Shown here: positions 2,520-32,183 of the stretch, piece after piece
Layout: each line of letters begins with the position of its first letter
How positions within the stretch are numbered: position 1 is the stretch's first letter
NCBI GenBank assembly: GCA_012513855.1
Contig: JAAZBK010000315.1
Location: forward strand, 1 to 32,183
Length of the DNA stretch: 32,183 nucleotides
DNA from: Acidimicrobiales bacterium
Lineage (GTDB): Bacteria; Actinomycetota; Acidimicrobiia; Acidimicrobiales; Iamiaceae
Direction of reading: 5' to 3'
Translations under genes and position numbers: made by a program
Notes under the pieces: model-generated
Told to the model about the DNA's origin: nothing
The model's input: the letters and a program-made list of their open reading frames with translations, nothing else
Databases searched by the model: none

Positions 2520-4223
2520 ATGGGCAGACTGACCCGATCGGCCGTCGGCGCCCTCGCGATCCTGTCGCTCGTGGTGGCCTCGTGCGGAGGCGACGACGAC
2601 GCGGCCGACCAGAACCCGTCGGTCGACATCGGCGGCGAACCCGTCGAGAGCGGCTTCCCCGCTGACCCCGAGCCCCAGCGCGGCGGACAGCTCGTCTACG
2701 GCCTCGAGGCCGACACCGACAACTTCTGCCTCCCCGAGGCCCAACTGGCCATCTCGGGCATCCAGGTCGCCCGGGCGATCTTCGACCCCCTGGTGGTGCC
2801 CGACGGCGAGGGCGGGTACTCCCCCTACCTGGCCAAGTCGGTGACACCGAGCAACCAGTACAAGACCTGGACCATCGAGCTGCGGCCCGGCGTCACGTTC
2901 CACGACGGCACGAGGCTCGACGCCACGGTGGTGAAGAACAACCTCGATGCCTACCGCGGCCAGTACGAGGGCCGGAACTCGCTGTTGCTCGCCTTCGCGT
3001 ACAGCGACATCGCCGACGTGCAGGTGCGAGACGAGCTGACGGTCGTCGTCACCACCAAGGTGCCGTGGGTGAAGTTCGACGCCGCCCTCTACAACTCGGG
3101 CCGGGTCCTGATGGTCTCCCAGTCCCAGCTCGACGCGTCCACGGAGTCCTGCGCCACCGAGCCGGTGGGCACCGGCCCCTTCGTCCTGAGCTCCTGGGAT
3201 CAGGGGAGCAGCATGAAGCTGAAGCGCAACGACCGCTACTGGGTCAAGGCTCCCGACGGCAAGCCCTACCCGTACGTGGGGGCGCTCGAGTTCCGTCCCA
3301 TCTCCAACGACGAGGAACGGGTGGCCGAGCTGCGCCGGGGCGACATCAACATCATGCACTCGAGCTCGTCGTCTGACATCTCTGGGAACCTGACCCAGCT
3401 GCGCGACGCCGGGGCCATAAACCTGGTGGTCAGCCGGGAGTACACCGAGACGATGTACTTCATGCTCAACGTCGACTCCACGCCGTTCGACGTGCGGGAG
3501 AACCGGGTGGCGGTGGCCCAGGCCATCGACCGGGAGAAGATCAACGAGGTCGCCAACCTCTCGTTCCCCGAGCTGGCCGACGGCCCGTTCGCCGAAGGCG
3601 TGTCCGGCTACCTGGAGGAGAACGGCTTCCCGGCCCACGACGCGGAAGCTGCCAAAGCCCACGTCGCCGAGATGAAGGAGAGCGGGGGCGACACCGCGTT
3701 CCGCCTCCTGTCCAGCAACAACCCGTCGACGATCCGCGTCTCGGTGCTGGCCAAGCGCATGCTCGAGGACGCCGGCTTCACCGTGGAGCTCGAGGTCGAG
3801 CGCCAGGTCGACCTGATCTCGCGTGCCATCAGCGGCGACTACGACATGTTGTTCTTCCGGAACCAGCCCGGCGACGACCCCGACAGCAACCGCATCTGGT
3901 GGTACGGCGGCGAGGACGGCGCGTCGAACCTGGTGAACTTCGGACGCTTCGACGACGACGTCATCGACGAGAACCTCGACATCGGCAGGCAGAACCCCGA
4001 TGAGGCGGCCCGGCAGGCGGCCTATGAGACCGTCAACCGACGCATGGGCGAGCAGGTCTACAACATCTACCTCTTCTACCAACCGTGGGCCGTGGCGATG
4101 TCGTCTGACGTGCACGGCGTCTTCGGCCCGGAGCTTCCCGCCGGTGACCCTGCCTCCAAGCGCCTCGTCACCGGTCATCCCCTGCTCGGCCTCTGGATCG
4201 ACGGGAGCACCGCAGGCGGCTGA
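2520..4223 (+). CDS. ABC transporter substrate-binding lipoprotein, family 5 (peptide/nickel-type) - paralogue 1
   Basis: Lipobox LVVASC; RGGQLVYGLEADTDNF, TWTIELRPGVTFHDGT, VGTGPFVLSSW, NQPGDDPD motifs; RBS-like GGGGAGG upstream of ATG. Confidence 0.95.
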   Translation: MGRLTRSAVGALAILSLVVASCGGDDDAADQNPSVDIGGEPVESGFPADPEPQRGGQLVYGLEADTDNFCLPEAQLAISGIQVARAIFDPLVVPDGEGGYSPYLAKSVTPSNQYKTWTIELRPGVTFHDGTRLDATVVKNNLDAYRGQYEGRNSLLLAFAYSDIADVQVRDELTVVVTTKVPWVKFDAALYNSGRVLMVSQSQLDASTESCATEPVGTGPFVLSSWDQGSSMKLKRNDRYWVKAPDGKPYPYVGALEFRPISNDEERVAELRRGDINIMHSSSSSDISGNLTQLRDAGAINLVVSREYTETMYFMLNVDSTPFDVRENRVAVAQAIDREKINEVANLSFPELADGPFAEGVSGYLEENGFPAHDAEAAKAHVAEMKESGGDTAFRLLSSNNPSTIRVSVLAKRMLEDAGFTVELEVERQVDLISRAISGDYDMLFFRNQPGDDPDSNRIWWYGGEDGASNLVNFGRFDDDVIDENLDIGRQNPDEAARQAAYETVNRRMGEQVYNIYLFYQPWAVAMSSDVHGVFGPELPAGDPASKRLVTGHPLLGLWIDGSTAGG

Positions 4224-4327
4224 AGGCCCGTCGCTGAGGCGCCCGTGGCGGTGACGACCGTCGCAGCGCGCCGATTTGTTCCGGTGCTCGCTTGAGCAAA
4301 GCCGCCTTCGAGCCGAAGTGCTAGGTC

Positions 4328-6064
4328 ATGCACTGCCTTCCCCCGCACGACCGCCAGCGACCGCCCACGTCATCGGACCGCCGGTGGCGATCGAGGCTCG
4401 CCACCTTGTTGGCGGCATCCACCCTGCTCGTGGCCGGCTGCGGCGACGACTCCTCCGGTGGAGCGGTGGCCCAGCGCTCCGACCTGCGCATCGACCAGAT
4501 CGGCGAAGCCGTCGAGAGCGGCCTGCCGGAGGATGCCAAGCCGGTTCGCGGCGGGCAGATCGTGTACGGCCTGGAGGCTGAGACGAGCCACTTCTGCCTG
4601 TCGTCAGCCCAGGTTGCGGTCTCGGGCATGCAGGTGATGCGAGCGATCTACGACCCGCTCGTGGTCCCCGATGCCGAGGGGAACTACCGGCCGTACCTGG
4701 CCGACTCGGTCGAGCCCGACGCCACCTACGAGACGTGGACGATCAAGCTCCGCCCCGGGATCGTGTTCCACGACGAGTCTCCGCTCACCGCCGAGGTCGT
4801 GAAGAACAACCTCGACGCCTACCGGGGTGAGTACCCGGGCCGCAGCTCAGACCTGTTCCTCTTCGCCTTCGACAACATCGAGTCGATCTCGGTGGTGAAC
4901 GAGCTCACCCTGAAGGTGAGCACCAAGGTCCCCTGGGTGGCATTCCGGGCCGCCCTCTACAACTCGGGCCGCGTCGGGATCATGGCCCAGGCGCAGCTGG
5001 ACGCCGACGTCGATCGGTGCGAGACGCATCCGGTGGGCACCGGACCGTTCGAGTTCGTGTCGTGGACCTACGGCGATTCCTTGAACGTGGTCAGCAATCC
5101 CGACTACTGGCAGGACGCTCCCGACGGAGAGCCCTACCCCTACGTCGACGCCATCGAGTTCCGTCCCATCCCCAACGCCGATCAGAGGTTGAGCGCACTG
5201 GTGCAGGGCGACATCAACATGCTTCACACCTCGGTGATCTCCGACATGGTGAGCAACCTGCCAGACCTGGTGGCGGACGGAGCGGTGAACACCCTCGTCT
5301 CCGACGACTTCACCGAGACCGCCTACACGATGTTCAACGTCGCCGAGCCACCGTTCGACCGGCGTGAGGCCAGGATCGCGTTCGCCCACGCGGTGGATCG
5401 GAACAAGCTCAACGAGGTGGCCAACAAGGGCGGCGCCGCCCTGGCCGACGGCCCCTTCCCGCCCGGGGTGCCCGGCTACGTGGAGGAATCGGGTCGACCC
5501 GGATACGACCCGGAGAAGGCCAAGGCCATGGTGGCCGATCTGAAGGCCGAGGGCGTCGACATGTCGTTCACCTTCCTCGACACCGCGGATCCGGCCAGCC
5601 TCCGGGCCACCGTCCTGGCCGTGGAGATGCTCGAGGAGGCCGGGTTCGAGGTGAAGCTGGTGATCGAGGACGAGGAGACGCTGATCGAGCGCGCGATCGC
5701 CGGCGACTTCCAGGCCGCGGCCTTCCGAAACCAGCCCGGCGACGATCCCGACATGAACTACATGTGGTGGTACGGCGAGGGGAACCCGGTGAACTTCGCC
5801 CGCTTCGACGACCCCGTGATCAACGAGGCCCTGAGGAAGGGCCGCAGCGAACCCGACGAGGAGGAGCGCCGCGAGCTCTACGAGGCGATCCACCAGCAGA
5901 TGGCGCAGGAGGTCTACTACTCCTACAACTGGTACGTGCCGTGGGCCGTCGCCGAGGCTGCCAACGTCCACGGCATCCTCGGTCCCGACCTCCCGAGCGG
6001 CCACGCATCCAGCACCCGCCTCGGAAGCGCCCACCCCCTGCACGGCGTGTGGATCTCGAACTGA
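4328..6064 (+). CDS. ABC transporter substrate-binding lipoprotein, family 5 - paralogue 2
   Basis: Lipobox LLVAGC; closely parallels paralogue 1 over its full length (VYGLEAETSHFCL, KNNLDAYRG, VGTGPFEFVSW, NQPGDDPD). N-terminal start uncertain. Confidence 0.93.
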   Translation: MHCLPPHDRQRPPTSSDRRWRSRLATLLAASTLLVAGCGDDSSGGAVAQRSDLRIDQIGEAVESGLPEDAKPVRGGQIVYGLEAETSHFCLSSAQVAVSGMQVMRAIYDPLVVPDAEGNYRPYLADSVEPDATYETWTIKLRPGIVFHDESPLTAEVVKNNLDAYRGEYPGRSSDLFLFAFDNIESISVVNELTLKVSTKVPWVAFRAALYNSGRVGIMAQAQLDADVDRCETHPVGTGPFEFVSWTYGDSLNVVSNPDYWQDAPDGEPYPYVDAIEFRPIPNADQRLSALVQGDINMLHTSVISDMVSNLPDLVADGAVNTLVSDDFTETAYTMFNVAEPPFDRREARIAFAHAVDRNKLNEVANKGGAALADGPFPPGVPGYVEESGRPGYDPEKAKAMVADLKAEGVDMSFTFLDTADPASLRATVLAVEMLEEAGFEVKLVIEDEETLIERAIAGDFQAAAFRNQPGDDPDMNYMWWYGEGNPVNFARFDDPVINEALRKGRSEPDEEERRELYEAIHQQMAQEVYYSYNWYVPWAVAEAANVHGILGPDLPSGHASSTRLGSAHPLHGVWISN

Positions 6065-6086
6065 CCGGGTAGCGGACGTCGGTGGC

Positions 6087-6112
6087 CGCACACCCCGCGT
6101 GACCGGGGTGCG
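6087..6112 (+). terminator. Hairpin just downstream of SBP paralogue 2
   Basis: CGCA[CA]CCCCG-CGTGAC-CGGGGTGCG, 9-bp stem with 2-nt bulge, 23 nt after the stop; no T-tract. Confidence 0.4.
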
Positions 6113-6232
6113 ACGCAGCGCCGCGTTCGCACCCGCTATGGTCACCGTCACGCCAAGAGGCCGTGGTCACGTCGAAGTGCCAGGGTCCGCCGGCCACCGG
6201 CCACAGTGCGATATCAAGCAAGGGGATCCTGT

Positions 6233-8008
6233 ATGTCAATCCGAGCGTCACGCTCACGCCGTCGTGCCCGTTCAGGGGCAGCTCTGCTGTTGGCCGCGAG
6301 CCTGTTGGCCGCGGGTTGCGGCGGCTCCAAGTCAGACGACGAATCGAACTCGACCGACCCGACCGCTCAGGGGAACGGCGACGACGGTCTCAACGTCGAG
6401 GCCGGCGAGTCCGGTCTCGAAGAAGCCGGCGAGCCCCAGCGCGGCGGCAAGCTGGTCTACGGGATCGAGGGCGAGTCCAGCGCCGGCTGGTGCCTCTCGG
6501 AGGCCCAGCTCGCCATCTCGGGGATGATGGTGGCCCGGGCGTTCTACGACACCCTCACCGTGCCCAACGCCAACGGCGAGTACGTGCCGTACCTGGCTCA
6601 GGACGTCACCCCCAACGACGACTACACGCAGTGGACCATCACCCTCCGCGAGGGCATCAAGTTCCACGACGGCACCGACCTCACCGCCGAGGTGGTCAAG
6701 AACAACCTCGACGCCTACCGCGGCGCCTACGAGGGGCGGGCCTCCACGCTGTTCCTGTTCGTGTTGCAGGACATCGACTCCACCGAGGTCACCGCGCCCG
6801 ACACGGTGCAGGTGAACATGAAGCGCCCGTGGGTCTCGTTCCCGGCGTTCCTGTTCAGCTCCTCGCGCATGGGGATGATGGCCCAGGCCCAGCTCGACGC
6901 CGATCCCGCCGGTTGCTCCGAGCACCCGATCGGTACCGGTCCCTTCGAGTTCGTCAGCTGGACCCAGAACCAGCAGATGACCGGCAAGGCGTTCGCCGAC
7001 TACTGGCAGATCGCCCCCGACGGCGAGCCCTTCCCCTACGTCGACGAGATCGAGTTCCGGCCGATCCCCGACGGCACGGTGCGCAAGCAGGCCATCCAGA
7101 GCGGTGGCATCAACATCATGCACACCAGCGACGCCGAGCAGATCCAGAACGACTTCTTGAAGATGCGCAACGACGGTGACGTCAACCTGCTCGTCTCGGA
7201 GGCCCAGGCCGAGGTGTCGTTCATCCAGATGAACAGCACGATCCCGCCGTTCAACGACGTGCGCATGCGCCGGGCCCTGGCCATGGGCTCTGACCGCGAA
7301 GACGTGAACCAGCAGGTCAACGCCGGCCTGCCCACGGTGGCCACCGGCCCGTTCGCTCCCGGTACGCCAGGCTTCCTCGAGGATGCCGGCTTCCCCGAGT
7401 ACGACCCGGAGACGGCCAAGGCCCTCGTGGAGGAGTACCTGGCCGAGAACCCGGATCAGCCTGCTTCGTTCACCCTCCTCGCCACCACCGATCCCACCGT
7501 TCGCAAGATCGCCCAGCTCATCCAGCAGCGGGCTCGCGACATCGGTGTCACGGTCGAGATCCAGAGCGTCGAGCAGGCCACCCTCATCGACAGCGCCATC
7601 GCCAAGAACTACCAGGCAATGGTGTTCCGCAACTACCCCGGTGGCGACCCCGACCAGAACTACGTGTGGTGGTACGGCAACGCCAACCCGGTCAACTTCG
7701 GCGGCTGGGACGACCCCGAGCTCAACGCACTGCTCGACGAGGGCCGCGAGACAGCCGACCCCGACGAGCGTGAGAAGATCTACCAGGACGTGAACCGGAT
7801 CATGGCGGAGAAGGTCTACGGCATGTGGTCGTGGTACACGCCTTGGGCCATCGTGCTCGACGACACGGTCCACAACGTCTTCGGTCCTCCGCTGCCCGGC
7901 GACGATCCGTCGCAACCGGGCGACGCCACCACCGACGACGACGCTCGCCGTCCCACACGCGGTCTGGCCGTCGGCCACCCGCTGATCGGCCTGTGGATCG
8001 AGCAGTAG
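6233..8008 (+). CDS. ABC transporter substrate-binding lipoprotein, family 5 - paralogue 3
   Basis: MSIRASRSRRRARSGAALLLAASLLAAGC signal/lipobox; RGGKLVYGIEGESSAGWCL, FHDGTDLTAEVVKNNLDAYRG, IGTGPFEFVSW. ATG 6233 preferred to 6206 (AAGGGGA upstream). Confidence 0.94.
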   Translation: MSIRASRSRRRARSGAALLLAASLLAAGCGGSKSDDESNSTDPTAQGNGDDGLNVEAGESGLEEAGEPQRGGKLVYGIEGESSAGWCLSEAQLAISGMMVARAFYDTLTVPNANGEYVPYLAQDVTPNDDYTQWTITLREGIKFHDGTDLTAEVVKNNLDAYRGAYEGRASTLFLFVLQDIDSTEVTAPDTVQVNMKRPWVSFPAFLFSSSRMGMMAQAQLDADPAGCSEHPIGTGPFEFVSWTQNQQMTGKAFADYWQIAPDGEPFPYVDEIEFRPIPDGTVRKQAIQSGGINIMHTSDAEQIQNDFLKMRNDGDVNLLVSEAQAEVSFIQMNSTIPPFNDVRMRRALAMGSDREDVNQQVNAGLPTVATGPFAPGTPGFLEDAGFPEYDPETAKALVEEYLAENPDQPASFTLLATTDPTVRKIAQLIQQRARDIGVTVEIQSVEQATLIDSAIAKNYQAMVFRNYPGGDPDQNYVWWYGNANPVNFGGWDDPELNALLDEGRETADPDEREKIYQDVNRIMAEKVYGMWSWYTPWAIVLDDTVHNVFGPPLPGDDPSQPGDATTDDDARRPTRGLAVGHPLIGLWIEQ

Positions 8009-19349: not shown

Positions 19350-20924
19350 ATGCCGTCCCCCGACTCCCGCACCGAGAGCCTCGACGACGTAGTGAGCCAT
19401 GATCACGAGGTGGTGATCGTGGGTGCCGGCCCGGCCGGGCTCACCGCCGCGTTCCAGTTCCAGAAGGCCGGGGTCAGTTCGACCATCCTCGAGGCCGACA
19501 GCCAGGTCGGCGGGATCTCCCGCACGGCCCAGCGCGACGGGTGGCGGTTCGACATCGGTGGCCACCGCTTCTTCACCAAGGTGCAACCGGTGGAGGACCT
19601 CTGGCACGAGATCCTCCCCGACGAGGACTTCCTGATGCGTCCCCGCAAGAGCCGCATCTTCTACGAGGGCAAGTACTACGACTACCCGATCAAGGCCACC
19701 AACGCCTTCATCAACCTCGGTCCCGTCGAGGCCGTTCGCTGCGTCGCGTCGTACGCGTGGGCTCAGATCCGTCCGCCCAAGGATCAGACCAACTACGAGG
19801 GTTGGCTGGTGGCCCGCTTCGGCTGGCGGCTGTACCGGACCTTCTTCAAGACCTACACCGAGAAGCTCTGGGGCGTTCCCGTGAGCGAGATGCCGGCCGA
19901 CTGGGCCGCTCAGCGGGTGAAGGGACTGTCCCTCGGCAACGCCATCGTCAACGCGCTTATGCCGAAGCGGAACCAGAAGGAGATCACCTCCCTCATCGAG
20001 GAGTTCCAGTACCCCAAGTACGGGCCCGGGATGATGTGGGAGGTGTGCCAGGAGAAGGTGGAGGCCCAGGGCTCCAAGGTCGTCACCGACACCCTGGTCA
20101 CCAAGATCGAGCACGCCGACGGACGCGCCACCTCGGTGGTGGCGACCTCCGCCGACGGCACCACCACCGAGTACCCCTGCACCGAGGTCATCTCCTCGAT
20201 GCCCATATCGCACCTGCTCGAGGCGATGGACCCGCCCGTCCCGGCCGAGGTCAAGGCCGCTGCCGCAGACCTGCGCTACCGCGACTACCTGATCGTGGCC
20301 CTGGTGCTGCCCGATGAACTGGTCGACTTCGACGACAACTGGATCTACATCCACGATCCCAACGTCCGCACCATGAGGATCCAGAACTTCGGATCGTGGT
20401 CGCCGTACATGGTCAAGCCCGGGTTCAACACCCTGGGCCTGGAGTACACGGTCTGGGAGGGCGACGACGAGTGGTCGTCTCCCGACGACAAGCTCGTCGA
20501 ACGAGCCAAGCGCGAGCTGGAGCAGTTGGGCCTGGCCAAGGCCGGCCAGATCCAGGACGGCTTCGTGGTCCGCCAGGCCAAGGCCTACCCGATCTACGAC
20601 GATCGCTACCGCGCCAACGTCGACGTCCTCCGCGCCTGGCTCGCCGAGAACACCTCCAACGTCCACCCCGTGGGCCGCAACGGCATGTTCCGGTACAACA
20701 ACCAGGACCACTCCATGTTCACCGCCATGCTGACGGTGGAGAACATCCTCGACGGCACCACCCACGACGTGTGGGAGGTCAACGTCGAGGAGGAGTACCA
20801 CGAGGAGAAGGGCTCCTCGCTCCCCGAGCTCGGACAGAACCGGCCTCCGGGTAGCCACGGGACCGGCCGCGATGCGCCGGTGATCAGCCGGGAGACGCTC
20901 GAGAGGCACCAGCCCTCCAACTGA
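19350..20924 (+). CDS. NAD(P)/FAD-dependent oxidoreductase (amine-oxidase / UDP-galactopyranose mutase-like)
   Basis: HEVVIVGAGPAGLTAAFQFQKAG Rossmann GxGxxG, DSQVGGISRTAQRDGWRFDIGGHRFFTKVQPVEDLWHEIL; exact start uncertain. Confidence 0.88.
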   Translation: MPSPDSRTESLDDVVSHDHEVVIVGAGPAGLTAAFQFQKAGVSSTILEADSQVGGISRTAQRDGWRFDIGGHRFFTKVQPVEDLWHEILPDEDFLMRPRKSRIFYEGKYYDYPIKATNAFINLGPVEAVRCVASYAWAQIRPPKDQTNYEGWLVARFGWRLYRTFFKTYTEKLWGVPVSEMPADWAAQRVKGLSLGNAIVNALMPKRNQKEITSLIEEFQYPKYGPGMMWEVCQEKVEAQGSKVVTDTLVTKIEHADGRATSVVATSADGTTTEYPCTEVISSMPISHLLEAMDPPVPAEVKAAAADLRYRDYLIVALVLPDELVDFDDNWIYIHDPNVRTMRIQNFGSWSPYMVKPGFNTLGLEYTVWEGDDEWSSPDDKLVERAKRELEQLGLAKAGQIQDGFVVRQAKAYPIYDDRYRANVDVLRAWLAENTSNVHPVGRNGMFRYNNQDHSMFTAMLTVENILDGTTHDVWEVNVEEEYHEEKGSSLPELGQNRPPGSHGTGRDAPVISRETLERHQPSN

Positions 20925-20988: not shown

Positions 20989-22337
20989 TCGGACAGGTCG
21001 TGACCGGCCGGATCGCCCGGGCCGGCATCTGTCCGGTCGACCGCCCGCACCTGCCTGGCCACCTCGGCGGCGAGGCAGGCCGATGCCACGATCAGCAGCG
21101 GGATCACCGGAACCTTGAACCGGCTGTCGCCGAAGAAGGCCAGGGGAACCGCCGCGGTCATGACCGCAGAGCCCACCAGCAGCAGATCCTCGGGGCGCCG
21201 GCGGCGCAGCAGGAAGACGAGCCCGACGGCCCCCGTTGAGGCCACGGCCCAGTAGACCACGTCTGCCGTGTAGGAGAGCCTGGCCTCGGTGGCCTCGGGG
21301 ATGAAGCGATCGGTCCGGTACGACTGGACCGCGAGGATCCCGTCGTGGTCACCGTCGCGCAGCCACATGTACCAGAAGCGTCGCCAGGTGAGCCACGGCT
21401 CCCGACCCGGGTCCTCGCGGATCGCGTCCAGGGCGATCCTGGTCTTCTCCCGGTCGGCAGCGATCTCGGCCGCCGGTCCGTCGAGGAAGTTGTGCTCGGT
21501 TGCGCACTCGTCGCGAGCGCTGAACGCGCCCGTGGCCCCCGGGCCGTGGCCGATGCAGAGGTTGTCTCCCGTGTTGGTCGACATCCACACCAGGTCGTCC
21601 ATCCGCAGGGCGTTGCGCACCGTCCACGGGGCCATGCACGCCACCACACCCGCCACGAGCAGCGCCCCCTGCACGAGCGCGCGCCGCCTGTCGCGGTGGC
21701 TCCACCACCAGACCCCCACCGCCACCGGGAGCACGGCCAGCGAGATCGGCCGCACCATCACAGCCAGGCCGAGCAGCAGACCCGCCAGCAGCGCCCGCCG
21801 GTTGGTGATGTCGTCGGGCCACCGACGTCCGAGGCACGCCACCAGGAACGCCATGAACAGCGCGTTGTAGAGGGTCTCTCCGAGCACCGCTCCGGAGTGG
21901 AAGATGAGGTTCGGGTACACCGCGAGCACCACGGCCGCCACGGCCCCCGCCGACGGGCCGGCCAGACGACGGGCCACCAACGCAGCGAGCACCACGGTGG
22001 CCGCGCCGAGGATCGACTGGGTCACGGCCGCCACCGTCCAGACCTGGTCGGTGAACGGCTGGGTGAACCACGTGAGGATGCCGAGGAACCACGGGTAGCC
22101 GGGCGGGTAGTACGCGGTCGGGTGGCCCGACCAGGGCTCGATCATGCCCTGGCCGTCGGCGATCACCCGCGCGTAGCCCACGTACCGGGCAGGGTCGAAC
22201 AACCCCTGAGGTTCCCGGGTCGCGTAGCGGACCCAGGCGAGTCGGAGCACCAACCCGACCAGGGCGGCGGCACCCACCAACGGGCGGAACCGCGCCTCCG
22301 CCCGGGATCGCTGCGAAGTGGGGGGACCCGGGGTCAC
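20967..22337 (-). CDS. Glycosyltransferase family 39-like (GT-C) membrane protein
   Basis: GLFDPARYVGYARVIADGQGMIEPWSGHPTAYYPPGYPWFLGILTWF; VYPNLIFHSGAVLGETLYNALFM; GTG 22337 overlapping the upstream GT2 stop. Confidence 0.85.
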   Translation of the reverse strand: MTPGPPTSQRSRAEARFRPLVGAAALVGLVLRLAWVRYATREPQGLFDPARYVGYARVIADGQGMIEPWSGHPTAYYPPGYPWFLGILTWFTQPFTDQVWTVAAVTQSILGAATVVLAALVARRLAGPSAGAVAAVVLAVYPNLIFHSGAVLGETLYNALFMAFLVACLGRRWPDDITNRRALLAGLLLGLAVMVRPISLAVLPVAVGVWWWSHRDRRRALVQGALLVAGVVACMAPWTVRNALRMDDLVWMSTNTGDNLCIGHGPGATGAFSARDECATEHNFLDGPAAEIAADREKTRIALDAIREDPGREPWLTWRRFWYMWLRDGDHDGILAVQSYRTDRFIPEATEARLSYTADVVYWAVASTGAVGLVFLLRRRRPEDLLLVGSAVMTAAVPLAFFGDSRFKVPVIPLLIVASACLAAEVARQVRAVDRTDAGPGDPAGHDLSDAQRPTR

Positions 22338-23092
22338 GCGGGCCGGCGGCGAAGCGCGCCGGCCAGGATCGGCTGCAAGCGGGACAGGCGTAGCCGCAAG
22401 CCCCAGGCCGTGACCCGGGTGAGCGACTCGACCATGATCGCCACCGACATCTTCGAGGCGCCGTGGGTTCGGTCGACGAAGGTGATCGGATGCTCCTGGA
22501 GGATCCCGTTCTCGGCGACGAGCCGCAGCGCCAGTTCGCTCATGAACGCGTAGCCGTTCGAACTGGTGGTCTCGGGGTGGATGGCCGCCAGGGCCGCCGA
22601 CCGGTAGGCGCGGTAGCCCGACGTGACGTCGTGCACCGGCAGCGCCAGCACGGCAGCCGTGTACCGGTTGCCGTAGCGGCTCAGCATCCGCCGGTGCAGC
22701 GGCCAGTTGGGGGTGGATCCACCCTGCACGTAGCGGCTGCCGATGGCGCAGTCGACCTCGCCGGCAGCCACCAGGCCGATGAGCGCCGGAAGCTCCGCGG
22801 GATCGTGCGACAGATCGCAGTCCATCTGCACGATGACGTCGTAGGGCCGGGCCAGCGCCCAGGAGAACCCCTCGCGGTACGCCGCCCCGAGGCCTTCCTT
22901 GCCCGCACGGTGCAGGACCGTGATCCGACCGAGCTCGTCGGCGATCTCCTCGGCCAGCTTGCCGGTTCCGTCGGGGCTGTCGTCGTCGAGCACCACGATG
23001 TCGGTGTCGGGCACCTGGGCCCGCACCGCCCGCAGGAGTGGGCCGATGTTCTCGGCTTCCTGGTAAGTGGGGACGACGACGACGCTGCGCAC
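22334..23092 (-). CDS. GT2 polyprenol monophosphomannose (dolichol-P-mannose) synthase-like
   Basis: VVVVPTYQEAENIGPLL...VVLDDDSPDGTG...QMDCDLSHDP...VDCAIGSRYV; GTG 23092 start preferred (ATG 23125 also possible). Confidence 0.9.
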   Translation of the reverse strand: MRSVVVVPTYQEAENIGPLLRAVRAQVPDTDIVVLDDDSPDGTGKLAEEIADELGRITVLHRAGKEGLGAAYREGFSWALARPYDVIVQMDCDLSHDPAELPALIGLVAAGEVDCAIGSRYVQGGSTPNWPLHRRMLSRYGNRYTAAVLALPVHDVTSGYRAYRSAALAAIHPETTSSNGYAFMSELALRLVAENGILQEHPITFVDRTHGASKMSVAIMVESLTRVTAWGLRLRLSRLQPILAGALRRRPA

Positions 23093-23210
23093 CCCGCAAC
23101 GATAACTGCGACCCCCACGCGCCATCCCATGCGGGCTCGGCTCCGGCTCCGGAGTGGGGCCCCGGACTGGCCGGATCGCCAGAACCGGTGGCAGGGCGCG
23201 GGCGGCTTCT

Positions 23211-23225
23211 TACACTCGTCCGGTG
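23211..23225 (+). promoter_or_regulatory. Putative -10 element of a leaderless promoter
   Basis: TACACT (23211-23216), 6-nt spacer, GTG start at 23223; no Shine-Dalgarno sequence. Confidence 0.5.
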
Positions 23226-25139
23226 CTCCTCGTCCGAAAGGTCCTTCCCTGGTCGCTCCTCCTCCTGGTGACGATCCTCCCGGTGGTGGGCGGTCTCGTC
23301 CAACGCCAGCGCGACGGCTGGTACCCCGAGAGCGACGACGCCACGATCGTGTTGCTGGCCGACGACACGCTCCGGGGAGATCCCCCGCTGGTGGGGATGA
23401 TCTCGACCGGCGGTGCCCACCTGAGCGATCCCGAGCTGCACCACCCCGGCCCCCTCGAGCTGTACCTCGTCTCACCCGTCACCACGCTCCTGGGCCCCGA
23501 CCTCGGGGCCGGGCTGGCGGCCACCCTGATCGCCACCGGCTCGGTCGCGGCCCTGGTGGCCGGGTTGTACGCCATCGGTGGGCGGGGCCTGGCCACCGGG
23601 GGTTTCGTCACCGCAGCCCTGATCCTGTGGGGGATCGGTGGCGACGCCCCCACGTCGGTGTGGAACCCCTACGTGGTCCTCATGCCCTTCGCCTCGTTCC
23701 TGGTCCTCTCGGCCGCCGCGGTGGCCGGCCGCAGGTGGGCTCTGGCCGGTGCCGTGGCGTTCGGATCGTTCGTGGCCCAGACCCACCTCAGCTACGCCGG
23801 TCTGGTGGGGCTGGTCGTGATCTGGCTGGCCGGCACCACCGCCTGGTCGCTCCTCCGACGACGGCGACGGGTGGGTGCGCCCGAGGCGGTCGCGCTCATG
23901 GTCGGGATCGTCCTGTGGCTTCCGCCGCTGATCGATCAGGCGCGTGGCGAGCCGGGCAACCTGGGCCAGATCTGGCGCTCGTTCACGGGGGGAGGGAGCG
24001 CGACGGTGGGCCTCGCCGGCGTGGCCGAACTGGGCCGGGTGGTGGGGCTGCCCATCGGCGGCATGCGGCCGCGGGGTGAGCTGATCCGGGTGCTGGGAGG
24101 GCCGTCGGTGGTCGGCCTGATGGCGCTGGTGGTGGTGTCGGCCGCCCTGGGGGCGCTGGTGCTCGCGGCCGCCATCCGCCTCCGGCCCGGGAGCGTTCAG
24201 AGCCTCGGGGTCGCCGGCACCGCTGCCGACGTGGTGGCTGTGGGCTCGACCGCCGCCGTGGCGCTGCTTGCGGGCGTCCTCACCGCATCCCGCATCCCCC
24301 TGAGCGAGGGGATCCAGTACCAGTACTACGGGCTGTGGATGTGGCCGCTCGCCGGCGTGACCTGGACCCTCCTGGCCTGGTCCGCCTGGCACCTCCTGCC
24401 CACCCGTCGGCGCGAGCGGGTCGTCGCGGTCGTGGGCCGGAGCTGGGCCCCCCTGCTGGCGGGTGTGGCGGTCCTCGTCACGTCGACGCTTCCACGGCCG
24501 GGCACGTGGGAGCCCTGGAGCGTGCACCGGCGGATCGCTGGCGATCTGGCCACGCAGGTCAGCGGGGCCGACGTCACCGGGCACGGTGCTGTCCTGGTTC
24601 GGTTCCGGGGCGCCACGCCGTACCTCTCGACGGGATCGGCGGTGGTCACGGCCATCGCCGCCTCCGGAGCCGAGGTGTTCGTCGACCCGGGCGCTCCGAC
24701 GCCCGTGTTCCCGTGGCGGGAGGGCCGCCGATACACCGACCAGGCGATCGGCCGCGAGGTGTGGGTGGTGGGAGGCCCGGATCGTCACCCCGACGTTCCG
24801 GCCGGAGCCGACCTCATCGCCACGGTGGCCACCCTCGACGACGCAACCGCGTCGGCGGTGGACCGTCGATGGTCCGACGCCCGGACCCGCGTGGCCGGTG
24901 GTGTCGAACGGGGCCCCCGCGACACGTCGGGGCCGGCCGACGTCGATCGCGTGGTGCAGGCGTTGGCCGATCCTGTGGCCGCACTCGACAGCGGCGATCT
25001 CGTCGGGCTGGTGGCTCGGGGCCTGGTGTCGGTGCCGGGCATGAGCGCCGACGAGCTGTTCCGCCTGGAGCGGATGCGGTCCCTGGCTGGTGAGGGCTCG
25101 GTGTCGCTCTACCTGGTCACCGCGGAGCAGCGCCGGTAG
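23223..25139 (+). CDS. Multi-pass membrane protein, candidate GT-C-like glycosyltransferase (paralogous to the C-terminal half of 28236-31142)
   Basis: WYPESDDATIVLLADDTLRGDPPLVGMISTGGAHLSDPELHHPGPLELY; W-NPY..LMPFASFLVL; VAQTHLSYAG; LPPLIDQARGEPGNLGQIW. Confidence 0.7.
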   Translation: MLLVRKVLPWSLLLLVTILPVVGGLVQRQRDGWYPESDDATIVLLADDTLRGDPPLVGMISTGGAHLSDPELHHPGPLELYLVSPVTTLLGPDLGAGLAATLIATGSVAALVAGLYAIGGRGLATGGFVTAALILWGIGGDAPTSVWNPYVVLMPFASFLVLSAAAVAGRRWALAGAVAFGSFVAQTHLSYAGLVGLVVIWLAGTTAWSLLRRRRRVGAPEAVALMVGIVLWLPPLIDQARGEPGNLGQIWRSFTGGGSATVGLAGVAELGRVVGLPIGGMRPRGELIRVLGGPSVVGLMALVVVSAALGALVLAAAIRLRPGSVQSLGVAGTAADVVAVGSTAAVALLAGVLTASRIPLSEGIQYQYYGLWMWPLAGVTWTLLAWSAWHLLPTRRRERVVAVVGRSWAPLLAGVAVLVTSTLPRPGTWEPWSVHRRIAGDLATQVSGADVTGHGAVLVRFRGATPYLSTGSAVVTAIAASGAEVFVDPGAPTPVFPWREGRRYTDQAIGREVWVVGGPDRHPDVPAGADLIATVATLDDATASAVDRRWSDARTRVAGGVERGPRDTSGPADVDRVVQALADPVAALDSGDLVGLVARGLVSVPGMSADELFRLERMRSLAGEGSVSLYLVTAEQRR

Positions 25140-26824
25140 AGGTGGAACCACGGCGCCCCGTCGCGGTCGCCGTAGCGCCCCACCTCGCAGAACAGCTCGT
25201 CGACCACCTCGTTCGGTTCGTTGGAACCGGGATCGCGCGAAGTGTTGGGCTCGTCCCAGTTCGACCACACGTTCGAGAGGATCAGCCAGTCGGCCGATGC
25301 GACCTCGGCGGCCAGTCCGGAGTCGTCGCGGTTGGCCACGCCAGGATCCATCTCGATGTAGCGGGTGGCCGGCACCAGGTCGGGGAACAAGAAGTAGAAG
25401 AACGCGTCGGAGTAGGGGGTGAACCGCATGTCGACCGGACCGACCAGCAGCCGCTCCCCCGGCTCGGCCATCTCACCCAGGTCTGCCACCAGCTCGTTGG
25501 CCGCGGCCGCGGCCTCGGGCGACCCGTAGTAGAAGTTCCGGCCCTCGTGGTTCACGGGATACCCGAACACGTTGCGCCCGAAGCTCTGACCCGCCAGGTC
25601 GACGTAGGTCCGCAAGGTGTAGTGCGGGATGACCGCCACCAGGATCAGCACCAGCGGCGCCGAGGCCATCGCCCAGCGCTTGAACGGCGCGGCGCTCCAG
25701 CGGCGGGGCAGCAGCTCGAGGACCGCCACGGGAAGCAGGGCCATCGGCACGCAGCTAACCCACGCGAAGTGGGCGGTGTCGGGCCTCTGCATCGCCTGGG
25801 TGAGCATGCCCACGCCGAACAGTCCCACGGCGCGGAGGAGCGTCGCTCGACGATCGCCGGGTCGACGGCGGGCAGCCCAGATGCCCACCCCGGCCACGAA
25901 CAGCGCGCTGAGCGGCACGAGGTAGAACCACATCGCCACCTGCTGGGCCGACGTGGGCGACGGCAGCGCCCACCCGAGGGTGCGCAGACCGGCGGCCTTC
26001 TGGAGGAAGCCGTCGAGCTCGGACCACGACGGCGGTACCGGCAGCGATCGGCCGGGCCGCAGCATGAACACCGGTTCCAGGAACATGCCCTCGAACGCCG
26101 GCTTGAAGCCGGCCATCGCCAGGTGGACGACGATCGGTGCCACGCCGGCCACCAGGCCGGCGACCAGCGGCTTGAGCCGGTCGACGGTGGGCTTCCACAC
26201 CGAGGCCAGGAGGCCAAGCCCGAGCGCCAGCACCAGGTCGGGCCGGTAGAGCAGCGCGAACCCGCCGAGGAGACCGGCCGTGATCATCCGTCGTCGGCTC
26301 GGCTCGGGGCCGGCCGACGCGGCCAGGTAGACCGACCACAGCGCGAGCGCCACGCCACCGTTCCAGGCCAGCGCGGTGAGGCCGATGGGCGGGACCACGA
26401 TCACCAGCGACGCGAGCGCGCAGACCAGACCGGTTTTCCGGCCCCAGTGCCGGGCCACGGCGTAGACGCCGAACACGATGCCCATGTGCTGGACCAGGCC
26501 GAACAGGCGCTCGGTGGCGAGCGACGTGCCGAAGACCTCGAAGGTCCCGGCCAGGACCCACAGGCTGCCCGGCCCGTACAGGTGCAGGAAGTCACGGTTG
26601 GGAACCGATCCCCTGAGCACCTCCTGGGGGAAGACCAGCATGAAGCCCTCCTCCATGGGAGGTCCCTGGTACCGCATGAGACCCCGCAGGGGCAGGGCGA
26701 AGGCGGCCAGGATGAGCACCACGGCCACCACCTCGGCCGCGTCGATCCCGTTCCAGCGCCGGTTCCAGCGCCGCGCTTCGGCGGGAGGGGCCGGCGTGGT
26801 GGTGGGGGTAGCTGCCACGGTCAC
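25109..26824 (-). CDS. Multi-pass membrane protein, GT-C-like (family unclear)
   Basis: MRYQGPPMEEGFMLVFPQEVLRGSVPNRDFLHLYGPGSLWVLAGTFEVFGTSLATERLFG plus repeated TM segments and a soluble C-terminal domain. Confidence 0.7.
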   Translation of the reverse strand: MTVAATPTTTPAPPAEARRWNRRWNGIDAAEVVAVVLILAAFALPLRGLMRYQGPPMEEGFMLVFPQEVLRGSVPNRDFLHLYGPGSLWVLAGTFEVFGTSLATERLFGLVQHMGIVFGVYAVARHWGRKTGLVCALASLVIVVPPIGLTALAWNGGVALALWSVYLAASAGPEPSRRRMITAGLLGGFALLYRPDLVLALGLGLLASVWKPTVDRLKPLVAGLVAGVAPIVVHLAMAGFKPAFEGMFLEPVFMLRPGRSLPVPPSWSELDGFLQKAAGLRTLGWALPSPTSAQQVAMWFYLVPLSALFVAGVGIWAARRRPGDRRATLLRAVGLFGVGMLTQAMQRPDTAHFAWVSCVPMALLPVAVLELLPRRWSAAPFKRWAMASAPLVLILVAVIPHYTLRTYVDLAGQSFGRNVFGYPVNHEGRNFYYGSPEAAAAANELVADLGEMAEPGERLLVGPVDMRFTPYSDAFFYFLFPDLVPATRYIEMDPGVANRDDSGLAAEVASADWLILSNVWSNWDEPNTSRDPGSNEPNEVVDELFCEVGRYGDRDGAPWFHLYRRCSAVTR

Positions 26825-28239
26825 GCCACGGCTCCTTCCGGGGGTGGGACGTGCCGCCGGGCGCGGACCTTCTCGACGACCGCGGCGAGCGTCACGGCCG
26901 AGAGGACCACCACCGCCATGTCGAGCGGTGTTCGAAACCGGTTACCCCCGTAGGCGTAGACGGCGCTGACGCTCACGGTGAGTGCCAGCCCGACGAAGGG
27001 GATGATGGTCGTGCCACGCCTCCGCAGCAGCACCAGGCCCGGGATCGAGAGGGCGAGGGCCGCCCACCAGGTCCAGACGCTGGCCACGCTCACGGCGCGG
27101 GACTTGCCGTCGATCTGGTCGAACGAGGCGTTCTGGAACGGCGCGTACAGGTTCCACGCCCGTCCGAGGCGGGCAGCCACCACCACCGGCACCCGGTCGA
27201 GGTTCTCTCGGGCGTAGCGGCGACCGTGCTCGCCCCACGCCTTGGCCCGCTGGGAGGCGTCGCCCGGCGGCTCCTGGCCGCCGTAGTACCGGTGCCTGAG
27301 CTCCTCCTGCCACGGGTAGAACCAGAAGCCGAGGAACCGTCCGTCTTCGACCTGCCCGTAGGCGTAGGGGTTGTTGGCGTAGACGAGCAGCTCGTCGCTG
27401 TTGGTGGAGATGGGGACGAACTCCTCGAACTGGATCACGTTGCGGATCGTCCAGGGCGCGATCACCACGGCGCAGGCCAGCCCGGCCAGGACGAGGTCGC
27501 GGACGTTGGCCCGGTGGTCCCGGACCCCGTCCCCATCCCCTGGCGCTCCTGGCGCTCCTGGCGCTCCTGGCGCTCCTGACGGTCCCGCGGCTCTGCCTCG
27601 ACGCAGCAACAGGAGCGGCACCACCAGCGTGAATGAGAGGATGATCCCCTCGCCCCGGGTGAGCGCCGCCAGCCCGAGGAGCGCGCCCGTGATCAGCGCC
27701 CACCGCGGTCCGGGCTCGCGCCACGCTCGGATCCCCGCCCACACGGTGAAGCCCACCAGGGCCGCGAACAGGCCTTCGGGCCAGAGCTGGCCGTCGATCG
27801 ACCACAACGGCGGGTAGGCGGCGGCGATGGCGGCCGCCACGAGGCCGACCCTCCGACCGGCTGCCTCCCTTCCCACCAGGCCGGCCGCGACCACGGCCAG
27901 GACACCGGCCAAGCAGCTCATGATCTTGTGGGCGAGGAGGGTGTCGAAGCCCAGCACCGACGGAATCGCGAGCCAGATCGTGAACAGCGGCGGGTGGATG
28001 GCCACCGGCTCGAACCGTCCGGTGTCGTCGTACAGGTAGGGGTCGGGGAAGCCGTGGCCGGCCACCAACATGTTCGCCTGACGGTGGTAGAAGTCGGGAT
28101 CCGACGGACTACCCGGCGTGTGGCCGGCGATGTTCGCCAGGAGGGTGAGCCGGAACACCAGCGCCACCAGCGCCACGACGGTGAGGCCCAGTGCGAACCG
28201 TGAGCGATGTCCTCTCAGCAACGTTCGGGTCACGGTCAC
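26821..28239 (-). CDS. Glycosyltransferase family 39-like (GT-C) membrane protein
   Basis: SPSDPDFYHRQANMLVAGHGFPDPYLYDDTGRFEPVAIHPPLFTIWLAIPSVLGFDTLLAHKIMSCLAG; ATGA overlap with 25109-26824. Confidence 0.85.
   Translation of the reverse strand: MTVTRTLLRGHRSRFALGLTVVALVALVFRLTLLANIAGHTPGSPSDPDFYHRQANMLVAGHGFPDPYLYDDTGRFEPVAIHPPLFTIWLAIPSVLGFDTLLAHKIMSCLAGVLAVVAAGLVGREAAGRRVGLVAAAIAAAYPPLWSIDGQLWPEGLFAALVGFTVWAGIRAWREPGPRWALITGALLGLAALTRGEGIILSFTLVVPLLLLRRGRAAGPSGAPGAPGAPGAPGDGDGVRDHRANVRDLVLAGLACAVVIAPWTIRNVIQFEEFVPISTNSDELLVYANNPYAYGQVEDGRFLGFWFYPWQEELRHRYYGGQEPPGDASQRAKAWGEHGRRYARENLDRVPVVVAARLGRAWNLYAPFQNASFDQIDGKSRAVSVASVWTWWAALALSIPGLVLLRRRGTTIIPFVGLALTVSVSAVYAYGGNRFRTPLDMAVVVLSAVTLAAVVEKVRARRHVPPPEGAVA
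27541..27577. repeat. In-frame 9-bp tandem repeat (x4)
   Basis: GGCGCTCCT x4 (27542-27577), encoding (GAP)n on the minus strand inside a GT39-like protein loop. Confidence 0.95.
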
Positions 28240-31142
28240 AACCCGGGCAACGGTGCGTCCGACACGAACACGGCGGTGGCCTGACCCACGGCGAGCATGC
28301 GCGACAGCATGTCGAAGGACTCCCCCACCACGCGAGGTTCGTTGAGCCCGATCCAGATCGAGGTCGGGATGCCGTCGGCCACCTCAGGCAGGCCGTCGGA
28401 GCGGAGCTGGTCCATCACCTGTCGCTGGAGGTCGAGGTACTCGAGGCGTTCCGCCTCGGTGCGGTGGTCGTCGTAGGCGAGCTCTCTGGCGCCTGGGATC
28501 TGGCGCGCCTGGTCGATCTTGGCGTCGCCGCTCACCACCGTCACGAACGCATCTGCCTCCGCGTCGAGCATGACCCGGTGCGGTTCGATGGCTGCCGACC
28601 GCCACGGGTGGGCGCCCACCTCGAAGCCTCGCCGCTCCAGTTCGAGCATGAGCCCGAAGCCGTTGCCCCCCAGGGCATCGGGGTCGACCCAGTTCATGAA
28701 GTACCGGAGAGACGGGTCGAGTTGCTCGGCCACCGGCGGAGCCAGGGCCCCGACGGTCCGCGAGTAGCGCATGTCGGGGGGCTCCACGCCGCTGGCCGTC
28801 CACGCGAACGACGCCGTCGACACGACCACCAGAGCCGCCAGCCCCGAGGCGACGGCCTGATGGCGCAGGATCGGGAACCGGGAGCCGTCGGGCCGGCGGA
28901 GGAGCGAGGCGCTCCAACCGACGGCCAGCACCATCAGCGCGGTGATGACCCAGAACCATTCGACCAAGTAGAGCAGGCGCACGGAGTCCAGCCGCATCGC
29001 CCAGAACCCGGCACAGGCGAGGAGGACGGCCAGCACCGCGTCGAGGCGCAGCAGCAGACCGTGCCGTCGCCGCCACGCCAGCGCCGCCGACCCGACCCAC
29101 GCTGCCAGCAGGGCCAACCCCGGTAGCACGGTCGACTGGACGCGGCGGGTGCCGAAGAGCCAGTTGCCCACCGGATCCAGTTGGGTGAGTACGATCCGGG
29201 CGCCGTTGCGGACGCCGATGACCTCGCCGGTCTGGGCGTCGTAGGTCTCGAGCAGGATCGAGATGTTGCCGGGGTCGTTGGTGAGCTGGTCGATCGCCGG
29301 AGGCGTCCACATGAGCCCTCCGACCAGCACCGCGATGCCGAACCAGAGCAAGGGGCCGATCCGCCCTGCGGGTGGACCGGGAGGTGCTGGTACCCACCGG
29401 TCGGGAACCAGGGCACCCGCCAGGGCCACCGCGAGCCCGGCGACCACGGCTGGGGCGTAGCCCACGTGGCACTGGACGCAGAAGCTGCCCGCCGCCACCG
29501 CAACCGGTAGGAACCCCCAACGACGACAGGCGACGGCCCAGCACGAGACGGCGAAGACCAGGAACGGCAGCAGCGGGATGTAGGGGTTCCACGGCTGGGT
29601 GAGCGCCACCGCCCCGTACGACCGCATGAGCACCGCTCCCACCACCGCCAGGGAGAACCCGAGGAACCAGCCGCCGAGCCGCCGGCCCACCTCCACCGCC
29701 AGCGCGTACGCCCCGACCACCACCAGGGCCACGCTGGCCTGGTACGCCCAGGAGCTTCGTCCGAGGAGCCACCACGCCGGCCACGTGATCCAGAACATCG
29801 CCGGACCGGGGTGGTTGCCCTGCTGCTCGAACGTGCCGATGCGGCCCGCCGGGCCCACCAGGGGAGGATCCGACCAGAAGCTGAGCTGGCGCATGGTGGC
29901 CTGGGCCAGATCGCCGATCGGGTACCACGTGTCCTGGGCCAGTGCCGCCACCGCAACGGCCATCGGCAGAGCGCCCACCGCCACCGCTCCCCACAGCACC
30001 GGCCGGCGATGGTCCGACATCCACGCCCAGGCGCGGTCGGGCAGGGTCGGCCGGCGGGGCTCGACCGCTCTGCCCCGGCGGTAGCGGCTCTCCACCAGGC
30101 GGTAGGAGACCTCGGTGAGGACCGCCGTGACCACCAGGCCCACCACCACCCGCAGCCAGACCGGCTGATCACCGATCCGGCGGGCGACGGTGAGGAACAC
30201 CGGGACGTGCCAGAGGTAGAGGCTGTAGCTGCGGTCTCCCAGCAGCTGGAGCGGCTCGAACCCGACCACCGTGGCCACCGGGCCGCTCTCGTCGAGCAGC
30301 ACCGACCCGACCACGGCCACGGCGGCGAGCGCCACCGCCGACAGGCCGAAGTTGCGGTACATGTTCACGTCGCCGGTCTCCGACAGGGTGCTGGCCACGC
30401 CGAGCACCGCCACGCCGGCCACCGACGGGATCCGGAGCCAGCGAGCAGGGCCCGCGAGGGCCCCGTGGTGGACGAGGAGGGCCAGGACGCAGCCGGCGAG
30501 GATCACGTCGATCCGGGTGTCGGTGCGGAGGTAGAGCGGCAGGTAGTGGGCCTGGTCGGTCCACATGACCGCCCGATGGAGACCGACCGCGACCATGAGG
30601 GCCACCAGGATCCCGACCTGGCCCTTCCACGGGATCCGGACGCTCCGGAGGGCGAGGAGGGCCAGCGGCCACAACACGTAGAACTGGGCCTCGATGGCGA
30701 GCGACCAGGTGTGCGACAGCTCGATCGGGTACGCCCAGCCGGCGGCCTGCTGCCAGTTGGAGAGGTAGGTGAGGGTCCCGGCCGAGCTGGTTGCGAGGTC
30801 GCTCCACGAGAGCTGGCCCGCGCCGGAGCCGACCCGGTCCGTCCCGATCAGCAGCACGGCCACCGCGGCCACCACGGCGAGCAGCGCCGGGAACAGACGC
30901 CACAACCGGCGGAGGCCGAACCGTCCGAGGGCGATGGTGCCGGTGGAGTCGAGCTCGACCAGGAGCAGCCGGGTGATGAGGAACCCGCTCAGGACGAAGA
31001 ACAGGTCGACGCCCACGAAGCCGCCCGGGAGCAGGCGCGGACCCCACCCGGCGGTCAGGTAGCTGGCGTGGTAGGTGACCACCAGCAGCACCGCGGCGCC
31101 ACGGATCCCGTCCAGGCGACGGATCCGGGAGTCGGGAACCAA
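28236..31142 (-). CDS. Fusion protein: N-terminal acyltransferase 3 (OafA-like) domain and C-terminal GT-C-like membrane domain (about 968 aa)
   Basis: N-term RRLDGIRGAAVLLVVTYHASYL...GGFVGVDLFFVLSGFLITRLLL...SHTWSLAIEAQFYVLWP; then DTWYPIGDLAQATMRQLSFWSDPPLVGPAGRIGTFEQQGNHPGPAMFWI... in one continuous frame. Start near TTG 31142 (or CTG 31151). Confidence 0.8.
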   Translation of the reverse strand: MVPDSRIRRLDGIRGAAVLLVVTYHASYLTAGWGPRLLPGGFVGVDLFFVLSGFLITRLLLVELDSTGTIALGRFGLRRLWRLFPALLAVVAAVAVLLIGTDRVGSGAGQLSWSDLATSSAGTLTYLSNWQQAAGWAYPIELSHTWSLAIEAQFYVLWPLALLALRSVRIPWKGQVGILVALMVAVGLHRAVMWTDQAHYLPLYLRTDTRIDVILAGCVLALLVHHGALAGPARWLRIPSVAGVAVLGVASTLSETGDVNMYRNFGLSAVALAAVAVVGSVLLDESGPVATVVGFEPLQLLGDRSYSLYLWHVPVFLTVARRIGDQPVWLRVVVGLVVTAVLTEVSYRLVESRYRRGRAVEPRRPTLPDRAWAWMSDHRRPVLWGAVAVGALPMAVAVAALAQDTWYPIGDLAQATMRQLSFWSDPPLVGPAGRIGTFEQQGNHPGPAMFWITWPAWWLLGRSSWAYQASVALVVVGAYALAVEVGRRLGGWFLGFSLAVVGAVLMRSYGAVALTQPWNPYIPLLPFLVFAVSCWAVACRRWGFLPVAVAAGSFCVQCHVGYAPAVVAGLAVALAGALVPDRWVPAPPGPPAGRIGPLLWFGIAVLVGGLMWTPPAIDQLTNDPGNISILLETYDAQTGEVIGVRNGARIVLTQLDPVGNWLFGTRRVQSTVLPGLALLAAWVGSAALAWRRRHGLLLRLDAVLAVLLACAGFWAMRLDSVRLLYLVEWFWVITALMVLAVGWSASLLRRPDGSRFPILRHQAVASGLAALVVVSTASFAWTASGVEPPDMRYSRTVGALAPPVAEQLDPSLRYFMNWVDPDALGGNGFGLMLELERRGFEVGAHPWRSAAIEPHRVMLDAEADAFVTVVSGDAKIDQARQIPGARELAYDDHRTEAERLEYLDLQRQVMDQLRSDGLPEVADGIPTSIWIGLNEPRVVGESFDMLSRMLAVGQATAVFVSDAPLPGL

Positions 31143-31147
31143 CCGGA

Positions 31148-31864
31148 TCAGCGCCCTCGGAAGCGGATCCGGGCGAGGATCCCGAGGGCGGCCACGCCGT
31201 CGGTCCACTGGATCTTCTTGCCCTCCTCGCGACCCCGGGCCCGGTACGAGATCGGGACCTCGAAGATCCGCTCTCCCCGCTTCAGCAGCTTGCCGGTGAG
31301 CTCGGCCTCGATGCCGAAGCCGTCGGACCGGAGGTCGACGGCCCGCCACGTGGCCGTGGGTGCCACCTTGAGGCAGGTCTCGATGTCGGTCAGCCAGGCG
31401 TCGAAGAGGAACGACGCCCACAGCGCCAGCATCTTGTTCCCCAGCACGAACCAGAACGAGTACGCGGCGTGACCGCCGTAGGAGCGGGCGCCGTAGACCA
31501 CCCGGGCGTCTCCTTCGAGGATCGGCTTGACCAGCGCCGGGAAGTCGGCGGGGTCGTACTCCAGGTCTGCGTCGAGGATGGTGAGCAGGTCTCCGGTGGC
31601 CTCGGCGATGCCCCGACGCAGCGCAGCGCCCTTGCCCTGGTTCGGGTTCTGCACGTAGAGGGTGACCTGGCCCGAGTCGACCAGGTCGGCGATGGTGTCG
31701 ATGCAACCGTCGGTGGAGCCGTCGTCGACCACCACCACCTCGGTGGGCAGCGGCATCTCCACGGCCAGCATGCGCTCCAGCGCGGTGCGGAGCGTGTCGC
31801 GCTCGTTGTAGACGGGCATGACGATCGTGAGCGACGAAGGCGCGACCGATGGTGCGGGAGACAT
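31148..31864 (-). CDS. GT2 glycosyltransferase (dolichyl-phosphate sugar synthase / GtrB-like)
   Basis: [15 protein letters not shown]...[10 protein letters not shown]...[12 protein letters not shown]...[10 protein letters not shown]...[36 protein letters not shown]. Confidence 0.92.
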
Positions 31865-31871
31865 GTCGACC

Positions 31872-32181
31872 TCAGTACGGCCAGGTCTCGGGATCGTGCC
31901 CCAAGAACCTGGTGAGACGGCCCAGTCGGGCGACGATCAACGCCTTGATGACCACGTTGCGGGCGAACCAAGGGAGCTGCGCGGCCTGCCGCAGGGCGTT
32001 GCGAGCCCGGTCTGCCGGCGACAGCGACTCGCGGCGGTAGTGGGTCATCGACTCCGACCGGCCCAGGTAGCGGAAGTCGCCACCGGTGAACAGCGACGCG
32101 GCCAGCGCGGCGGTGACCCCCACCGACGAGAAGGAGTCGTGGATCAGGAGGTCTCCGCCCGGCTTCACCTTGGCCCCCCAC
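31872..32181 (-). CDS. Class I SAM-dependent methyltransferase-like, C-terminal fragment (enters from the right edge)
   Basis: [26 protein letters not shown]...[21 protein letters not shown]; 'KPGG.LLIHD' resembles Methyltransf_24-type post-strand motif; truncated. Confidence 0.55.
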
Positions 32182-32183
32182 CG

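Follow-up and report, generated by a model that had tools for sequence, protein, structure and literature searches.

An AT3 acyltransferase joined in frame to a predicted GT-C-fold membrane module in Acidimicrobiales

Membrane proteins of the acyltransferase-3 (AT3) family have been described as AT3 domains alone, as AT3-SGNH proteins, as AT3-alanine racemases and, in eukaryotes, as fusions to other domains (PMC7448272, PMC9558356, PMC9833829). The AT3 review literature lists as open questions how the acyl group is passed on to its acceptor and whether proteins made of AT3 alone depend on a separate partner (PMC9558356). Glycosyltransferases of the GT-C type have a small extracytoplasmic domain after transmembrane (TM) helix 1 and work on the membrane's outer face with lipid-linked sugars, which in several systems are supplied by a GT2 lipid-sugar synthase (PMC11127046). 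Here we describe a gene that joins an AT3 acyltransferase to a predicted GT-C-fold module in a single polypeptide of 968 aa. The gene lies at 28236..31142 on the minus strand of a 32,183-nucleotide stretch of DNA from an Acidimicrobiales bacterium (contig JAAZBK010000315.1; hereafter the window, meaning the whole stretch that was analysed). An original prediction made from this DNA had called such a fusion unusual, and this holds, as the AT3 papers cited above name none; a search of the openly accessible literature, with subscription papers and the Pfam architecture list outside its scope, likewise found no description of an AT3-GT-C combination.

The frame runs uninterrupted from a TTG at 31142 to a TGA at 28236, comprising 968 codons without internal stops. 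The TTG, 5 nt past the end of the upstream GT2 gene, is a plausible but tentative start, guessed from this spacing, while the TGA shares a GTGA overlap with the GTG start of the next gene (PMT_2). The window corresponds to contig C205 of a metagenome-assembled genome (MAG), a draft that is fragmented (540 contigs, 88.7% complete, 4.2% contamination). The complete fusion recurs over its whole length in two other MAGs of the genus, G133 (L017/L047; 66% identity) and G299 (L046; 63% identity), where the gene order methyltransferase, GT2, fusion, PMT_2, GT-C is identical to that in the window. The open frame and these full-length homologues agree with the predicted single in-frame fusion of about 968 aa between an acyltransferase and a second module, and they supply the further examples of the architecture for which the original prediction had proposed to search. 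Differences among the three complete fusions amount in both halves to 0.46-0.51 at the third codon position and 0.18-0.24 at position 2, which at the sequence level is the pattern of coding DNA. The linker between the halves (∼32 residues) diverges faster than either of them, yet it remains open, with 31-32 aligned codons across the three fusions. An internal start yielding a separate GT-C protein was considered and rejected, as M375 is ATG in the window and the aligned codons are GTG (L046) and GTT (L047), so that the position is unconserved. In a further genome, G301, the halves lie at two contig ends (L048, residues up to 311; L050, residues from 367), as would be expected of a fusion split during assembly; G301 is a probable fourth case. 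The fusion is a real gene.

The AT3 domain spans residues 1-349 (30096..31142, minus strand) with ∼10 predicted TM helices, and Acyl_transf_3 (PF01757) matches residues 9-342 in Pfam (E 1.8e-27, 96.7 bits against a cut-off of 31). Comparison with OafB, in which motifs of the R-x10-H and RxxR type are essential (PMC9833829), places the R-x10-H motif in TM helix 1 (R14/H25) and the RxxR motif at TM helix 3 (RLWR, residues 79-82). A predicted full-length model (predicted local distance difference test, pLDDT, 76; predicted TM-score, pTM, 0.59) has about ten long helices across residues 6-355, and its AT3 part weakly matched human HGSNAT with acetyl-CoA (8vkj; probability 0.99 but E 0.078); HGSNAT and AT3 are placed in one superfamily by a 2025 paper (PMC12423673). 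The linker that follows (residues 350-381; 30000..30095, minus strand), delimited by sequence and codon comparison and by low pLDDT at residues 357-363, is predicted to be cytoplasmic because it is Arg-rich (positive-inside rule). In this topology the ten AT3 helices would bring the chain back to the cytoplasm and the GT-C module would then begin in its normal orientation. The original prediction had the second module begin at about RAWAWMSDHRRPVLWG (residue 370); the module itself stands, but this point falls within the linker, just ahead of the module's first helix.

The remainder of the protein (residues 382-968; 28239..29999, minus strand) is the GT-C-fold module, which in the predicted secondary structure ends in a soluble alpha/beta domain (residues ∼809-968; 28239..28718, minus strand). 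An AlphaFold2 model of this half, built from 8 sequences, has a mean pLDDT of 76.9 and a pTM of 0.79, and all 17 of its best Foldseek matches in the PDB are GT-C enzymes, led by ArnT (E 1.6e-7 and 7.4e-7) and followed by STT3/OST, ALG12, AftA, ALG9, PglB, Emb proteins and ALG3. The corresponding TM-scores are moderate (0.2-0.54), and therefore the likeness to these enzymes is one of fold only. The separately predicted full-length model likewise retrieves GT-C enzymes. The C-terminal half is thus predicted to have a GT-C fold, as the original prediction had proposed for its second module. At the level of sequence families the picture is different in that residues ∼380-968 gave zero matches in Pfam (E up to 10), NCBIfam or the PDB sequences (phmmer), and the matches from a profile search of the PDB sequences look like chance and were set aside. 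PMT_2 is matched by one of 31 relatives of this half, at 1.4e-4, and the module does not fall into the ArnT/PMT_2 sequence family. Pfam also gave no SGNH/GDSL match in the C-terminal half, though the same test finds such domains in other AT3 proteins of the order.

Invariant in 31 members of the family, most of them unfused (full-length numbering), are W406, P408, G430, P445-G-P, W518-N519, Q557, H559, W612, N626, Y725, W729 and R856, and D411, H444 and R717 are at least 90% conserved; the module bears the signatures H444-P-G-P, W518-N-P and Q557-x-H559. The catalytic acid of GT-C enzymes sits just after the first helix, and D411, in the first outer loop, is placed directly after the module's first helix. 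Judging by the fold and this conserved Asp, the GT-C half would be an active transferase and, by analogy with GT-C enzymes, may catalyse glycosyl transfer from a polyprenyl-phosphate sugar.

How widely the fusion occurs was assessed by searches of genome collections (24 genomes of the family and a 397-genome sample of the phylum). Matches spanning the junction were found in only three of the 24 genomes (G000, G133 and G299); the phylum sample gave no further one, with the proviso that such samples can miss rare cases, and no record in a plasmid collection spans both halves. Strong matches to the GT-C family in the phylum sample came only from this class, and the family is nearly specific to Acidimicrobiia, common in Acidimicrobiales and unrecognised by Pfam and NCBIfam. 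Long AT3 frames elsewhere in the order were considered as additional AT3-GT-C fusions and rejected, as none contains the GT-C family: the eight tested by Pfam mostly have SGNH/DUF459-type C-termini (three apparently doubled), one is an AT3-AT3 tandem and one has no recognised partner. Tandem AT3-AT3 arrangements in single frames were seen in two genomes of the order (L105:1-3336, plus strand; L109:220-3156, plus strand), and in L108:1672-4608 (plus strand), L112:927-3638 (minus strand) and L113:2116-4821 (plus strand) AT3 is followed by ∼500 residues resembling two consecutive SGNH/DUF459-type domains.

Gene order in relatives suggests how the two halves came together. The genus-mates G250 and G298 have a separate AT3 gene at the same site after the GT2 gene, followed tail to tail by an opposite-strand GT-C gene and then PMT_2, so genomes with the halves as split adjacent genes, which the original prediction had suggested looking for, do exist. 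Elsewhere (G160, G303, G269 and G002) the GT-C gene is reversed relative to the methyltransferase-GT2 pair, adjoining it or one gene off, and this AT3 gene is absent. G210 has two GT-C copies, one reversed and one directly after the GT2 gene in the same direction, and therefore the orientation has changed more than once; the two copies lie tail to tail beside the GT2 gene (L095:6571-10222). In a tree of the GT-C half the fused proteins, together with the probably fused one, group as a single clade (100/100) whose neighbours are G250 and G298. The AT3-half tree lacks resolution, so that the GT-C-half tree and the gene order carry the case for a single origin; on these, the fusion most likely arose a single time, within part of one genus of Acidimicrobiales. 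Most economically, the AT3 gene would at first have had the GT2 gene on one side and a reversed GT-C gene on the other, until the GT-C gene was inverted in place and joined to it in frame. A history running the other way, with an ancestral fusion that an inversion later split in G250 and G298, would be less economical.

The association of the two gene types is not limited to the fusion. Two genomes from a different family of this order have GT-C and AT3 genes that overlap stop to start, the GT-C gene coming first: G192 (L135 ∼5900-6010, ATGA) and G019 (L150 ∼5900-6020, TGATG). Of 20 extra GT-C neighbourhoods, three (L135, L147 and L150) have an AT3 gene no more than ∼1.1 kb away from the GT-C gene, and the linkage is accordingly recurrent and far from obligatory. 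Together with the convergent pairs of the genus-mates, the overlapping pairs support a functional partnership; because both gene types are common in polysaccharide loci, we gave the overlaps and the fusion more weight than mere proximity. The AT3 frame in L150 (692 aa) has room for an SGNH-like C-terminus. A dense cluster in G061 (L083:1218-10116) has AT3, a GT-C homologue and AT3 in a row on the same strand, after which come the GT-C gene, reversed, and another AT3.

The fusion gene sits in an envelope-glycan cluster that reads methyltransferase, GT2, fusion, PMT_2, GT-C-like gene, free-standing GT-C-half homologue (on the other strand), GT2, PMT_2, PRK07208-type FAD oxidoreductase, second AT3 and further PMT_2. 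From the methyltransferase through to the FAD oxidoreductase, G299 (L084) and G133 (L088) have these genes in unchanged order. The cluster opens with the 3′ part of a Methyltransf_24 gene (31872..32183, minus strand), cut by the contig end. The GT2 gene that follows (31148..31864, minus strand) is a conserved neighbour whose nearest matches are AglJ and dolichyl-phosphate hexose transferases, far below cut-off; it is a candidate maker of a lipid-linked donor. Downstream of the fusion are the PMT_2 (GT-C) gene whose start overlaps the fusion stop (26821..28239, minus strand; PF13231, E 3.8e-12) and a second GT-C-like gene that is kept in the cluster (25109..26824, minus strand; weak PMT_2 match, E 1.1e-4). 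The free-standing relative of the GT-C half (23154..25139, plus strand; 33% identity over 283 aa, E 1e-23) bears YPESDDAT and HHPGP signatures and occupies the same position in L046, L047 and L081. Also kept in the cluster are the second GT2 gene, of the polyprenyl-phosphate-sugar-synthase type (22334..23125, minus strand), and the FAD oxidoreductase (19350..20924, plus strand; NF005548, E 1.7e-237). At 2520-8008 (plus strand) the window also has three successive genes for family-5 extracellular solute-binding proteins, then permease and ATPase genes of an oligopeptide-type ABC transporter.

The likeliest role of the protein, to which we give a probability of about 0.6, is the concerted decoration of one extracytoplasmic envelope glycan by acylation and lipid-donor glycosylation. 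In such a mechanism the AT3 domain would take an acyl group from cytoplasmic acyl-CoA and present it on the membrane's outer face, the tenth AT3 helix would end in the cytoplasm and the Arg-rich linker would run into the first GT-C helix. The GT-C half, with Asp411 in its first outer loop, would move a sugar from a polyprenyl-phosphate donor made by the neighbouring GT2 to a glycan acceptor on the outer face. As both reactions would take place on that face, the fusion would join two reactions of the same compartment, with the tether keeping both active sites on one side and in a fixed ratio; a single glycan could then be glycosylated and acylated together. We infer the activities, the donor, the acceptor and the coupling of the fused halves, the last of which is made plausible by gene linkage, shared sidedness and context. 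The original prediction, which had proposed coupled O-acylation and glycosyl transfer on one lipid-linked substrate, is thus supported in part, and a shared lipid-linked substrate is a possibility. The more specific proposal, that one polypeptide adds the lipid-donor sugar to and acylates the very same glycan on the outer face, and so would be the first AT3 enzyme to contain its own GT-C partner, is tentative and we put it at somewhat below even odds.

Several observations weigh against concerted decoration. In many genomes this GT-C gene is found without an AT3 gene nearby, so it does not depend on AT3, and since polysaccharide loci commonly contain both gene types, neighbourhood alone is weak evidence. 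Neither Pfam nor NCBIfam assigns the GT-C family, and an hhalign comparison of its profile with the neighbouring PMT_2 proteins gives a weak match (probability 11%, E 0.003, HPGP aligned with HPP). The first outer loop is poorly modelled (pLDDT <50 at residues ∼415-446 in both models), so that catalytic geometry cannot be judged from it, and the full-length pTM of 0.59 leaves uncertain how the two domains are placed towards each other. Some of these points are shared by a fair rival, in which the fusion is real but incidental and two independently acting envelope enzymes tolerate a tether without coupling. Restriction to three or four genomes within a single genus, a fast-evolving linker and the frequent occurrence of the GT-C half on its own are all as expected of such a protein. 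Against this, the fusion has persisted through divergence to 63-67% identity, two genus-mates have the halves side by side and convergent, and two genomes from another family have them as a pair with overlapping stop and start. We consider this explanation less likely than concerted decoration.

It is also conceivable that the GT-C module is inactive as a transferase and serves AT3 as a glycan-binding or scaffolding partner, in place of the SGNH domain of OafA-type proteins. An extracytoplasmic partner domain is a known requirement of fused AT3 proteins (PMC7448272), and a family outside Pfam with a poorly modelled outer loop would suit such a role. However, Asp411, HPGP, WNP and QxH are nearly invariant in the 31 members, most of them unfused, and the module is predicted to share its overall fold with active GT-C enzymes, so we regard a purely structural module as improbable. 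Least credible of all is an assembly or sequencing artefact (a lost stop codon) or a decaying pseudogene: the window does come from a fragmented and incomplete MAG, but two other MAGs have the same fusion with coding-type divergence on either side of the junction, a linker of near-equal length and no internal stops. As independent assemblies carry the fusion, we dropped this explanation, and the original prediction's concern about an assembly-created fusion is thereby answered.

A few uncultured Acidimicrobiales combine in one membrane protein an acyl-adding and a sugar-adding envelope enzyme that are separate proteins in their relatives; acyl and sugar decorations may accordingly be made together on the cell exterior. 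The natural fusion points to GT-C glycosyltransferases as a candidate class of AT3 partner, and the fused, convergent and stop/start-overlapping arrangements inside one bacterial order form a ready comparative set. AT3 fusions as such are known; what is new is GT-C as the fusion partner, together with a GT-C family outside Pfam.

In comparison with described systems, the locus resembles three-component extracytoplasmic glycosylation (Gtr; GT136, PMC11127046) in having a GT2 of the lipid-sugar-synthase type beside a GT-C gene, but here no flippase gene was identified and the GT-C enzyme carries an acyltransferase. The GT-C half shares with ArnT (GT83), STT3/PglB, ALG12, AftA and Emb its predicted overall fold, a conserved acidic residue in the first outer loop and an expected lipid-linked donor; unlike them, it has no sequence-family match (16% identity to ArnT in the structure alignment) and is fused to AT3. 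VanT-type AT3-alanine racemases also join AT3 to an unrelated enzyme, although their partner is a soluble racemase with an unrelated role. Closest in architecture are the AT3-SGNH proteins of the OafA/OafB/OatA type, which likewise combine an N-terminal AT3 domain having R-x10-H and RxxR with a C-terminal second module working on the outside, the partner there being SGNH and here a polytopic GT-C-fold module. Whereas AT3-SGNH proteins use an eleventh helix, the ten AT3 helices of the fusion lead to a predicted cytoplasmic linker, and therefore no eleventh helix would be needed.

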